From contig SDNY01000029.1 in assembly GCA_004524535.1 (NCBI GenBank), positions 1 to 36,125 on the forward strand: a stretch of DNA of 36,125 bases, in the 5' to 3' direction. A program made the position numbers and the translations under genes. The first letter of the stretch is position 1; the number at the start of each line of letters is the position of its first letter. The stretch comes from Promethearchaeota archaeon (GTDB taxonomy: Archaea > Asgardarchaeota > Lokiarchaeia > Sigyniarchaeales > SOKP01). Positions 4,423 to 25,720 of this stretch are shown here, piece by piece. The notes under the pieces are model-generated. The model was not told the origin of the DNA. It ran no database searches and was given only the letters and a program-made list of their open reading frames with translations.

Positions 4423-7400
4423 ATGAATATTTACAGAAAAAAAGGTAAAACGGTTTTAGTTTTAATCAGTTTATTTACTATCTTGTATTTTCTAACATTT
4501 ATTTTCAATTCGGTTAATTTTATTCAGTATAACAATGAAAATGAGCAAAAATTTAAAGAGGATATATATGGAAATCCTCTTTCAGACGAAGAAGATAATA
4601 TTATATTAGATGATTTGAATTTTGAAGATAAATTACCACAACTTAGCAGCCCTATATTACAAAATTATACAATGATTGTAGGCAATCCTTATAGTTGGAT
4701 TAGTGCAGCTGGAGGCACTGAATTATTATTATTGGATAATAGCTATGTATCACGATCTTTACCATTTAGTTTTGATTTCTATAATGAGTCCTATTCAACA
4801 ATTTATTTAGGAGTAAATGGATATTTAAGTTTCACTGATTCATCACCTTCTGATTTTTCTAATGATCCGATTCCTTCAACGGATCCTGATAATACTTATC
4901 TAATCGCTCCATTTTGGGATGATTTGCTAACTGCTTGGGGTGGCGGAGGTGGAACGATTTATGTACGCTCATTTGGCACATATTGGGTTGCTGAATGGTT
5001 AAACATAGAACATATTTCTGGTCCTACTGTTGGTACATTTGAAGTTATTTTATATGATAATGGAGATATTGTTTTTAATTATGATTATATTAGTTATGTA
5101 GCTGGTGGGTATACTTGTGGATTAAATTTGGGTTTAGACACTAGTTATTACAATGAATATTCAGGTTTAACTGCATCAACAAATGATTTTTCATTACTTT
5201 TCACTCCTACAAATGATTATGCACCTCAATTATCAGCAGAGTCAGTTATACCTACAACAGGTGGTCAAACCACACAATTCAATTTTAGTGTAGAATATAC
5301 GGATCAAGACAACAATCCTCCCATTTATGTTAATGTAACTATAAATGGTACCTCTTATTCAATGAGTCAAGTAAATCCCTTAGATAATGATTATACTGAT
5401 GGTTGCATTTATCAATATATAACCTATCTACAACCAGCTGCATTTAATTATACTTATTCGTTTGAATGTAGCGATGGAGATAATTTTAATTCAACAATTA
5501 CTTACGACAATTTGGAAGTAATTCATGTAAATGATTATGGACCAGAACTTCTTAATCCACAAGTTACTCCATCAATAGGAGGGAATTCTAAATTATTCAA
5601 TTTTACAGTGAGATATTTTGATGATGATAACAATTTTCCTGTAAATATTAACATTACATTAAATAGCACGACAACATATTTGATGCTACCTGTAAATCCT
5701 CTAGATACCAATGCTATGGATGGTGTTCTTTATTATTTCAATACCACATTAGATTTTGGATATTATAGTTTTCAAATTAATTGTTCGGATGGAGTTTTCA
5801 CGAATTCAACAGGATGGATTATAGGCCCGGAAGTTAATCCTTTTTATGGACAGTGGAGCGATTTTACACTTTTCTATGATGATTTTGAACGAGCATCTCT
5901 AGGTTCAGATTGGACGCATATTGGTGGTGGATCATATGGAATTAATACCGATACTTTTCAATCACCGACTAGATCGGCTTATCATTGTTGGAATACTGGT
6001 GAAATCCAATCAAGAATATTTGACTTGAGTTTCTATCGTTATGTTAATATTTCCTATTGGGTTAGACAAGGAGATACGTCACTAGGGAGTGAACAACCCG
6101 AGACAGGTGAAGATTTCTTTGTTGAATACTATAATAATCTGGGGAGTTGGATTCCCCTTGATCAATTTTTAGGTGCTGATCCTGGTGCCACAATCTATAT
6201 ACGATCACACCAATTACCAGCTGATGCCCTACATTCCAATTTTCAAATAAGATTCAGACAGTTTGGGGGTTCTAATTCTGATTGGGATTGGTGGCATTTT
6301 GATGACGTGCGAATTGATGTTAATTCAGTACTGAATTTGCATTTACCCCTAAATAATAGTATTCACTTTAATGGTTTTATCAACTTCACATGGGACAGCT
6401 TAGATGCTTATATTGGTGCTTGTAATTATACTCTTCAAATCTCGAATCAAATAGACTTTTCAGTAATTAATATTGAAGAATTGAATATTCCAGAAACGCC
6501 TGATAATACCAGTATACTCATAGATGTAAATTTAGCGGCAGATCAATACTATTGGAGAATCCGTCCAACCTATGGTCCATTTTATCATAATTGGTCTGAT
6601 GTTTTTACATTTAACTTAACTATTAATAATTTCACTCCAAATTTATCATCTGTAGAAGTTATTCCATTATATGGTTCACAAATGACAAAATTTAACTTTA
6701 CAGTTATGTATTCTGACCAAGACAACAATCCTCCCATTTATGTTAATGTAAATATAAATGGTACATCTTATTCGATGAGTCAAGTAAATCCCTTAGATAC
6801 TGATTATACGGATGGTTGTATTTTCCAATATTTGTCTAAATTATCTCCAGCAACGTTCAATTATACTTATTCTTTTGAATGCTATGACGGGAAATATGCT
6901 AATTCTACTATCCTCTATGATAATTTAGAAGTAATAGAAATTAACCTAATTGCACCAAACCTTATTAATCCACAACTAAATCCTTCTATTGGAGTTAATT
7001 CTACTCTGTTTAATTTTTCTGTGTGGTACTATGATATAGAGAATAATCAACTCACCTATATCAATATCACAATAAATGATACTGGCACATTTTTAATGGA
7101 AAAAGCAGATCCATTGGATTTTAATGCGACAGATGGAATACTTTACTACTATACTACTACCTTACCTTGGGGTTATTATAAATTTCAAATTAATTGTTCG
7201 GATGGAGTTTTTACGAATTCAACAGGATGGTTGATTGGTCCTGAGGTTAATCCATTTTTAGGTTTGTCAGATTTGTCAACAGATCCTATTAAAATAGTGA
7301 TATTAGATTCAGCAGCGTCTGATGCTCCTCGTAATGGTATTTGGGCAAATTTGAATGCTAACTGGAATTTATATGGAACTTATAATATTTCAATAGATTA

Positions 7401-17740: not shown

Positions 17741-18121
17741 ATGAGTTCAGAAGACAGAACTGAAGAACTTCATGAATTATTGATGAATTTAGAAGTAATT
17801 AGCGGAATAATTGGTACTGCAATAGTAAAAAGTAATGGGTTATTAATTACTTCTAGATTACCAAGGGACATTGATGACCGAAAGTTTGGAGCAATGGCAG
17901 CTACTATGTTAGGTGCAGTTGAAACTGCTACAAGTGCTTTAGGGAATACAAATATTAATAATCTAACAGTTGAATTGGGAGACGATTACCAATTGATCGT
18001 GATGAAAGCCACTGATCAGATAATTCTTGTCTCATTATTAGATTTAAATGTTAATTTAGGTTTAATTTTAATAGAAATTGAAGAAACAATTAAAAAAATT
18101 AAAGAAATATTAATTTCATGA
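17741..18121 (+). CDS. Roadblock/LC7 domain protein
   Basis: A 126-residue single-domain roadblock/LC7 protein. The helix ELHELLMNLEVISGIIGTAI, the strand IVKSNGLLITSRLP, the central helix with GAMAATMLGAVETA and the final helix EETIKKIKEILIS fit the fold. In eukaryotes and Asgard archaea such proteins regulate small GTPases or act as scaffolds; in bacteria (MglB) they act on polarity GTPases. No small GTPase gene is in this window, so the partner is unknown. No Shine-Dalgarno is visible. The stop overlaps the ribosome-binding site of the next gene, suggesting cotranscription. Confidence 0.88.
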   Translation: MSSEDRTEELHELLMNLEVISGIIGTAIVKSNGLLITSRLPRDIDDRKFGAMAATMLGAVETATSALGNTNINNLTVELGDDYQLIVMKATDQIILVSLLDLNVNLGLILIEIEETIKKIKEILIS

Positions 18122-18131
18122 GGCGATTTAT

Positions 18132-18872
18132 ATTTTAACAGAAAACCAAAAAGAGAGATACTCTCGACAAATAATATCCCCTCTAATTGGTGAGGAGGGG
18201 CAAGAAAAATTATTAAATATTAGCGTATTACAAATTGGAATGGGGGGATTAGGATCTCCATGTTCTTTATATCTTACTGCAGCAGGAATAAAAGAATTGA
18301 CGATTATAGATAACGATGTTTTAGATCTTTCAAATTTACAAAGACAAATTTTATATAACGAGACACAGGTAGGTAGAGATAAAGCTGAAATAACAAAAGA
18401 GGTATTATCCAATCTCAATTCTGAAATTCAAATTAAGACTTATAAGGATTATATAGACGAAAATTCAATTAAAAAGTACTTAAAAGGTCAAGATTTTATA
18501 GTTGATTGCAGCGATAATTTACAAACTAAATTTCTCGTAAATAAAGTTGCGATTGAAAACAATATGAAATGTGTAATTGCTGGAATAAAAGATTTCTATG
18601 GTCAAATAATTACAATTAATCCTAAAAAGAGTGCTTGTTATCAATGTGTTTTTCCAGATCCCGAAAAAGATTCGATAGATCCAAATGCTGGTCCTTTACC
18701 AGTAATAGGTGTTACTCCAGGGATTTTAGGAACATTAGAAGCCTTAGAAGTTATTAAAACAACATTAGGACTTCCAAATTTATATGACAATCTATTAATG
18801 GTAAACTTATTAGATTTAAGTTTTAATAAAATACAAGTTGTTAAAGATGAGAAATGTATTTGCTCTAAATAA
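18132..18872 (+). CDS. E1/MoeB/ThiF-like adenylyltransferase, probable ATT start
   Basis: A 246-residue activating enzyme that adenylates the C-terminal glycine of a ubiquitin-like or sulfur-carrier protein. The ATP-binding motif QIGMGGLGSP (Gly36-Pro43), Asp62, the Arg finger in SNLQRQ (Arg71) and the CSDN motif (Asp128) are intact. Zinc ligands are CYQC (169, 172) and Cys242/Cys244, the last pair spaced CxC instead of CxxC. The loop that normally carries the thioester cysteine reads DPNAGPLPVIG (about 183-193) and has none, so it may adenylate only. The typical family N terminus (LTENQKERYSRQ) lies upstream of the first ATG at 18240. The only start that includes it is ATT at 18132, 4 nt behind the Shine-Dalgarno GAGGCGAT (18120-18127). 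It follows the roadblock gene. Molybdopterin or thiamine biosynthesis are alternatives to protein conjugation. Confidence 0.85.
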   Translation: MLTENQKERYSRQIISPLIGEEGQEKLLNISVLQIGMGGLGSPCSLYLTAAGIKELTIIDNDVLDLSNLQRQILYNETQVGRDKAEITKEVLSNLNSEIQIKTYKDYIDENSIKKYLKGQDFIVDCSDNLQTKFLVNKVAIENNMKCVIAGIKDFYGQIITINPKKSACYQCVFPDPEKDSIDPNAGPLPVIGVTPGILGTLEALEVIKTTLGLPNLYDNLLMVNLLDLSFNKIQVVKDEKCICSK

Positions 18873-25117: not shown

Positions 25118-25306
25118 ATGTCATTAGAAAACCCGAATTTATTAGAAAGGATTAAAAATATTGAAAAAAAGATAAATGAGATAGAAAAAAGACTTTCATC
25201 GTTAGAAAATTTATTGCAACGCCCTCCATTCAGACCTGGCCCCCCGATTCCTCCTGGTCCCACGCCACCTGGACCCCCACCTCCACCTGAACCATTTCGG
25301 TTTTAA
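25118..25306 (+). CDS. Mini-protein: coiled coil plus polyproline tail
   Basis: A 62-residue protein. Residues 8-34 form a heptad-like coiled coil (ERIKNIEKKINEIEKRLSSL), and residues 35-59 are a Pro/Gly tail with PGPPIPPGPTPPGPPPPPEP. The coiled coil would multimerise the tail, giving a multivalent polyproline ligand of the kind bound by profilin, SH3, WW or EVH1-type domains in eukaryotes. Asgard archaea have profilins, but no partner is in this window. The codon pattern and clean ATG support a real gene. Nothing more is known. Confidence 0.55.
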   Translation: MSLENPNLLERIKNIEKKINEIEKRLSSLENLLQRPPFRPGPPIPPGPTPPGPPPPPEPFRF

Positions 25307-25465
25307 AATATCTAACACCATCTTGAAGATCTAATTGAATCCTATAAAAATATAGCTTTAAACTCAAGTATACCCTTTTAGACTAAAATCTTTAATTATT
25401 TTTATTATCTATATATATTTAATAATATATTTTATATCCGAATTTAAAAAAGGAAGTGATTAAAA

Positions 25466-25720
25466 ATTACACAATACAGATTTAGGCTTACTGGAGTCCC
25501 TCCAGACCAGGCTATAAAATTAATTGAGGTAGATCCTAATCAAAATATTGCTGATATTAAAAAATCCGTTCAGAGAGAATATAAGCTGAATCCGATTTTA
25601 GCGATTCAATTTATTTTTAAAGGGAAGGTTTTACCCGATCAATTAAAATTTGCAAAAATTGGTATCCACCCTAAGAAGGACGTAATCACGGTTATGGCTA
25701 CGCAGGCTGGCGGATTCTGA
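25466..25720 (+). CDS. Ubiquitin-like protein ending Gly-Gly-Phe, probable ATT start
   Basis: An 84-residue beta-grasp protein not openable from ATG, GTG or TTG. It begins ITQYRFRLTGVPPDQ, continues with VDPNQNIADIKKSV (helix), IQFIFKGKVLPDQ and GIHPKKDVITVMATQAGGF. The segment FIFKGKVLPD matches ubiquitin's LIFAGKQLED, and the C-terminal Gly-Gly plus one Phe resembles ubiquitin precursors that need trimming before activation. The start is ATT at 25466: a TGA at 25457-25459 closes the frame upstream, and a near-perfect Shine-Dalgarno AGGAAGTGAT (25451-25460) ends 5 nt before it. The E1-like gene at 18132 is a possible partner. No E2, RING or JAMM protease gene is in the window. Sulfur carriage is the alternative role. 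Confidence 0.85.
   Translation: MTQYRFRLTGVPPDQAIKLIEVDPNQNIADIKKSVQREYKLNPILAIQFIFKGKVLPDQLKFAKIGIHPKKDVITVMATQAGGF

Follow-up and report, generated by a model that had tools for sequence, protein, structure and literature searches.

The window analysed here is a stretch of 36,125 nucleotides (contig SDNY01000029.1) from a lokiarchaeial genome of 3.66 Mb that is 99% complete. It carries a gene for a ubiquitin-like protein and one for an E1-like adenylating enzyme, both of which appear to open at an ATT codon. The features concerned, with the evidence for each in brackets, are as follows.

18119-18127, + strand: weak Shine-Dalgarno-like element, TGAGGCGAT, 5' of the ThiF start; mostly GGTGAT-like in relatives (sequence, homologues)
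18132-18872, + strand: E1-like adenylating enzyme of the ThiF/MoeB type, predicted to open at ATT 18132-18134, there being no suitably placed canonical start (PF00899, homologue column, linkage)
25450-25460, + strand: Shine-Dalgarno-like element, AAGGAAGTGAT, complementary to the archaeal 16S 3' end (GGAGGTGATC type) and containing the in-frame TGA 25457-25459 (sequence, homologues)
25466-25468, + strand: putative ATT start codon, 6 nt after GTGA (column occupied by ATG, ATT, ACG or TTG in homologues)
25466-25720, + strand: ubiquitin-fold protein of 84 amino acids ending VMATQAGGF, with the stop codon TGA at 25718-25720 (Pfam, alignment, model)

The product of 25466-25720, ITQYRFRLTGVPPDQAIKLIEVDPNQNIADIKKSVQREYKLNPILAIQFIFKGKVLPDQLKFAKIGIHPKKDVITVMATQAGGF, matches the Pfam ubiquitin family PF00240 (E=3.9e-9; 36.6 bits against a cut-off of 25.4), and its AlphaFold model is a confident beta-grasp with a mean pLDDT of 92. 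Foldseek matched the model to 1ubq (TM 0.83 by target, 22% identity) and to the Caldiarchaeum ubiquitin 6fnn; alignment with 1ubq gave a Z of 11.4 and an rmsd of 2.0 with 76 residues aligned, and both ubiquitin and ISG15 align with the model in Foldseek and VIA-align. The gene was found in 63 of the 83 genomes of the class. It is not a chance reading frame, since many homologues are 94-99% identical to the window's protein and 30 alignment columns, like the C-terminal Gly-Gly (G82 G83), are invariant among 28 diverse homologues. Judged by its sequence, the gene is thus a real and strongly conserved ubiquitin-like modifier. A related ubiquitin-like domain (RLTGISADEAVKFI...) also occurs in large proteins of the same genome, in frames of 600-1600 codons (L002-L008). 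Just 5' of the gene, at 25118-25306, lies a small predicted protein with a proline-rich end, and similar short frames precede the ubiquitin-like gene at L018, L019, L025, L030 and L047.

The original prediction held that this frame has no ATG, GTG or TTG before the fold begins and is closed upstream by an in-frame stop. Both points are seen in the sequence, where the frame measures 86 codons from stop to stop: the TGA at 25457-25459, two codons 5' of the ATT, shuts the frame, and a scan for ATG, GTG and TTG encountered the first only at codon 77 (offset 76 of 84 from the ATT). The start region reads AAGGAAGTGA (25450-25459), then TTAAAA, then the ATT, so that the near-perfect Shine-Dalgarno element that had been placed 5 nt before the start is indeed there, at 5 nt when counted from GTGAT and at 6 nt from GTGA. 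When the same position was read in related genomes, across 58 loci of Lokiarchaeia and their relatives, the start column contained ATG at 37 (34 at the exact column and three, L056, L068 and L069, one codon before or after it), ATT at 15, ACG at three and TTG at three. The ATT loci are spread over five genera (three in g1, one in g2, nine in g7, one in g8 and one in g9), four of which also hold ATG, and the GTGA-like element is retained, mostly 5-7 nt 5' of the start, in ATG- and ATT-start homologues alike. Most homologues therefore have ATG at the very codon that is ATT in the window, and translation of the ubiquitin-like gene very probably starts there; all the sequences compared are metagenome assemblies. 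ACG occupies the column in L014, L015 and L016, and in L014 there are TTG codons further 5' in the frame.

It could be argued that a sequencing or assembly error has destroyed an ATG, the window coming from a single metagenome assembly. ATT recurs, however, at 15 loci in five genera, on contigs from many separate sequencing projects that include two single-contig chromosomes (CP070831 and CP070805). A base error was rejected because of this recurrence among homologues, and we accord it practically no chance. A second argument would place the true start upstream, joined to the frame by an archaeal intron, a frameshift or stop readthrough. Intron-like insertions do exist in related genes: the genome of the window has an interrupted E2 gene, and at L052 (about 6222-6251) and L064 (about 192-221) the ubiquitin-like gene carries 30 extra nt, inserted at one and the same position (DVI^TVM). 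It should be emphasized, however, that there is no ATG in the roughly 130 nt 5' of the ubiquitin-like gene, that homologues with ATG begin at the same codon, and that in homologues the codons 5' of the start column are unconserved and the frame is mostly closed within a few codons. An upstream exon was discarded for want of a nearby ATG and of conserved upstream coding sequence. Nor can the GTG within the Shine-Dalgarno element serve as a start followed by a frameshift: the spacing varies among homologues such that this GTG falls in all three frames relative to the gene, which is why the GTGA-like element is read as a Shine-Dalgarno element and not as a start. An upstream start is accordingly very unlikely. 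The two outcomes named in advance as fatal to an ATT start, a conserved upstream ATG in a longer frame and a base error, were thus looked for in the homologues and not found. The insertion at L052 contains an in-frame TAG and a stable hairpin and is a possible archaeal intron; in a check for a bulge-helix-bulge fold it scored a z of -3.3 on a 40-nt piece and only -2.1 on a 55-nt piece, while L064 scored -1.9 and -0.1.

The gene for the E1-like enzyme lies 7.3 kb from the ubiquitin-like gene in the window and matches PF00899 (E=1.7e-55 for its shorter ATG frame). At its start column most close relatives have ATT, ATC or ATA and others ATG, mostly behind GGTGA-like elements. Both genes could be mapped in 46 genomes, and in 31 of these they lie on a single contig; this count is biased by short contigs, and general synteny could contribute to it. 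In 28 of these 31, which include the more distant family f3, the genes are 4-16 kb apart with ThiF nearly always upstream and on the same strand; in the other three, on long contigs, they are far apart. This linkage suggests that the modifier may be activated by the ThiF-type E1. The protein resembles CsUb of Caldiarchaeum, whose operon comprises CsUb, E1, E2, RING (E3) and Rpn11 and whose precursor has a tail of nine residues (PMC5654768, PMC6043591), in that both are archaeal ubiquitin folds with a precursor tail after Gly-Gly. Unlike the genes of that operon, however, the window gene is a solitary one with a ThiF/MoeB-type E1 in its neighbourhood, and the tail measures 0-3 residues in most homologues. 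The Caldiarchaeum layout, with the modifier beside E1, E2, RING and Rpn11, was not found in the window; its genome does contain E1-, E2- and JAMM-type genes, including two E1-E2-JAMM clusters (contigs C123 and C181) with their own ubiquitin-like genes. The short ThiF/MoeB type of the linked E1 also recalls SAMP/Urm1-type modifiers and their UbaA/MoeB-type E1, but, unlike those modifiers, the window protein matches PF00240, and no match to MoaD, ThiS or Urm1 appeared among its Pfam matches at E<=0.1.

From the single residue after Gly-Gly it had been deduced that the protein must be processed by a protease before activation. The homologues bear this out only in part: of 60, 36 carry one variable residue, five carry two or three, and 19, about a third, end exactly at GG; longer tails occur in a few further homologues. 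The tail is not a conserved signal, because it is absent in 19 of the 60 and a variable residue in others. Trimming after GG by a JAMM-type enzyme has been shown in Caldiarchaeum (PMC5654768, PMC6043591), and by analogy it is plausible here: the short variable tail would be removed, probably by a JAMM protease, to give a mature protein ending in Gly-Gly. A second ubiquitin-like protein of the genome (L147 944-1223, G000 contig C181), ending ARVVGGF, is encoded beside E2-, E1- and JAMM-type genes. A short insertion divides the E2 gene at L146 5742-6311 (G000 contig C123, 16741-17310) between two frames. In nearly all relatives this gene is one continuous frame of 169-205 codons, and the break represents an intron, a frameshift or an assembly error.

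The ATT start is not peculiar to the ubiquitin-like gene, which is one case of a wider class of genes that open at ATT, ATC or ATA (ATH). Screening for genes that lack a canonical start brought to light, first, the E1-like gene of the window, but most of the initial hits were artefacts of upstream extension, and larger genome pieces were then used with a test of Shine-Dalgarno position. In 2.0 Mb from three related genomes we considered codons that open frames of 80 codons or more and have no canonical start 5' of them. Such codons were ATH in 24 of 54 cases 6 nt after GGTGA, as against 13 of 132 at +9, +12, +15 and +18 (Fisher p=3.5e-7), the +6 and control counts sharing some frames. The enrichment was significant singly in G041 and G042 and not in G003 or G022. 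The genes listed by their ATH starts include those for uL15, a DJ-1/PfpI protein, an MGMT-type protein, a Gtr/Rag-like GTPase, a DsrE-like protein and a response regulator; some of the candidates may be false positives, and Pfam confirms the uL15, DJ-1, MGMT-type, Gtr/Rag-type and aIF1 families among ATH-start genes. In 13 genomes the uL15 gene has its ATT at a distance of exactly 6 nt from the preceding GGTGA, and in most others an ATG lies one codon later. At the level of sequence, the ubiquitin-like gene is a member of this class of AUH-started genes in these Lokiarchaeia. In a review, AUG, GUG and UUG are the only archaeal start codons given (PMC7531240), and in a search of open-licence papers AUU starts did not turn up for Asgard archaea. 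Should Lokiarchaeia use AUU, AUC and AUA, gene finders that accept only ATG, GTG and TTG are likely to mis-call or miss some of their genes, eukaryotic-signature proteins among them.

Initiation at such codons could depend on the element that precedes them. The Shine-Dalgarno element would set the initiator tRNA over the AUU, which would presumably be decoded as methionine, and a strong, well-spaced element would compensate for the weak start codon in AUH-started genes, whose output might be lower or regulated. A 5-nt Shine-Dalgarno element was present at only 33 of 349 homology-supported genes with canonical starts, in agreement with the published rarity of these elements in Lokiarchaea (PMC7531240, PMC12993045). 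A pairing of strong element with weak start would explain why certain genes keep a Shine-Dalgarno element in genomes where such elements are rare.

It could be argued that this pairing has no regulatory meaning, a strong Shine-Dalgarno element allowing any near-cognate codon to work adequately, so that ATG is replaced by ATT, ACG or TTG, and restored, by drift. Indeed, on a tree of ThiF, aIF1 and uL15 the ubiquitin-like gene has changed its start codon several times, ATT filling g1 and most of g7, returning to ATG in one g7 clade and being found again in one g8 genome; the ThiF start wanders among ATT, ATC and ATA, and ACG and TTG also occur at the ubiquitin-like start column. Against such drift, all 15 ubiquitin-like starts other than ATG, TTG and ACG are ATT, with no ATC or ATA, although AT-rich composition may explain part of this bias. 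The start of aIF1 also argues against it. This SUI1-family protein is the start-codon fidelity factor, and in archaea discriminates against such non-canonical start codons. The aIF1 frame contains no ATG, GTG or TTG before the conserved zinc-binding N-terminus, and of the 30 closest homologues 29 open at ATT, while the gene of the window's own genome opens at ATC. A pattern search recovered the leader GGTTGTGA-N9-ATH-AAR in 38 genomes, with ATT in 37 and ATC in one, and a control with the reversed pattern gave no matches. The gap from GTGA to the start was exactly 9 nt in all 38, though 4 to 10 were allowed. Drift would not be expected to keep both ATT in 37 of 38 genomes and a leader of fixed length. 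We grant neutral drift of the start codon slightly less than an even chance. That the loose starts stem from a loss of aIF1 was rejected, since the factor is present in 70 of the 83 genomes and in all 18 of those of the best quality.

The ATT start of aIF1 and of other genes suggests, by analogy, a self-limiting control circuit like that of bacteria. In bacteria, as cited in PMC4611024 and PMC9845219, IF3 represses AUU starts; infC, the gene that encodes it, itself has an AUU start, and changing this codon to AUG abolishes the autocontrol (Butler et al. 1987 and Brombach and Pon 1987, cited in PMC9845219; La Teana et al. 1993, cited in PMC4611024). As with infC, the archaeal gene for a fidelity factor has a non-canonical start behind a Shine-Dalgarno element (ATT or ATC in the 38 genomes), the ubiquitin-like gene likewise has an AUU behind such an element and no canonical start, and the factor would act on further AUU-started genes as well. 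The factor here is, in contrast with IF3, aIF1, with a SUI1 fold and a place in archaeal translation, and the class contains, unlike the infC case, a ubiquitin-like protein, an E1-like enzyme and uL15. Eukaryotic eIF1 is autoregulated through a poor start context (Ivanov et al. 2010, as cited in PMC9845219); aIF1 belongs to the homologous factor family and may similarly control the stringency of its own start, but with a non-AUG codon and a Shine-Dalgarno element in place of an AUG in poor context. We tentatively propose, at somewhat worse than even chances, that aIF1 represses its own AUU-started mRNA and so limits its own synthesis, and that a set of AUH-started genes (among them those for the ubiquitin-like modifier, the linked E1-like enzyme and uL15) forms a regulon that follows start-codon stringency under the same control. 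Such a circuit in archaea would correspond by convergence to infC autoregulation, eIF1 providing a eukaryotic parallel, and would mean that bacteria, archaea and eukaryotes have each put a start-codon fidelity factor under its own control.

In aIF1 leaders (for example L307 1484-1521) the conserved sequence extends into the coding part, beyond what a Shine-Dalgarno element alone would need. In the single-contig genome G042 (C1) aIF1 is found in two distant pieces, residues 1-25 at 1032005-1032079 on the - strand and residues 20-105 at 1385113-1385370 on the + strand, a split that reflects a rearrangement or an assembly error.
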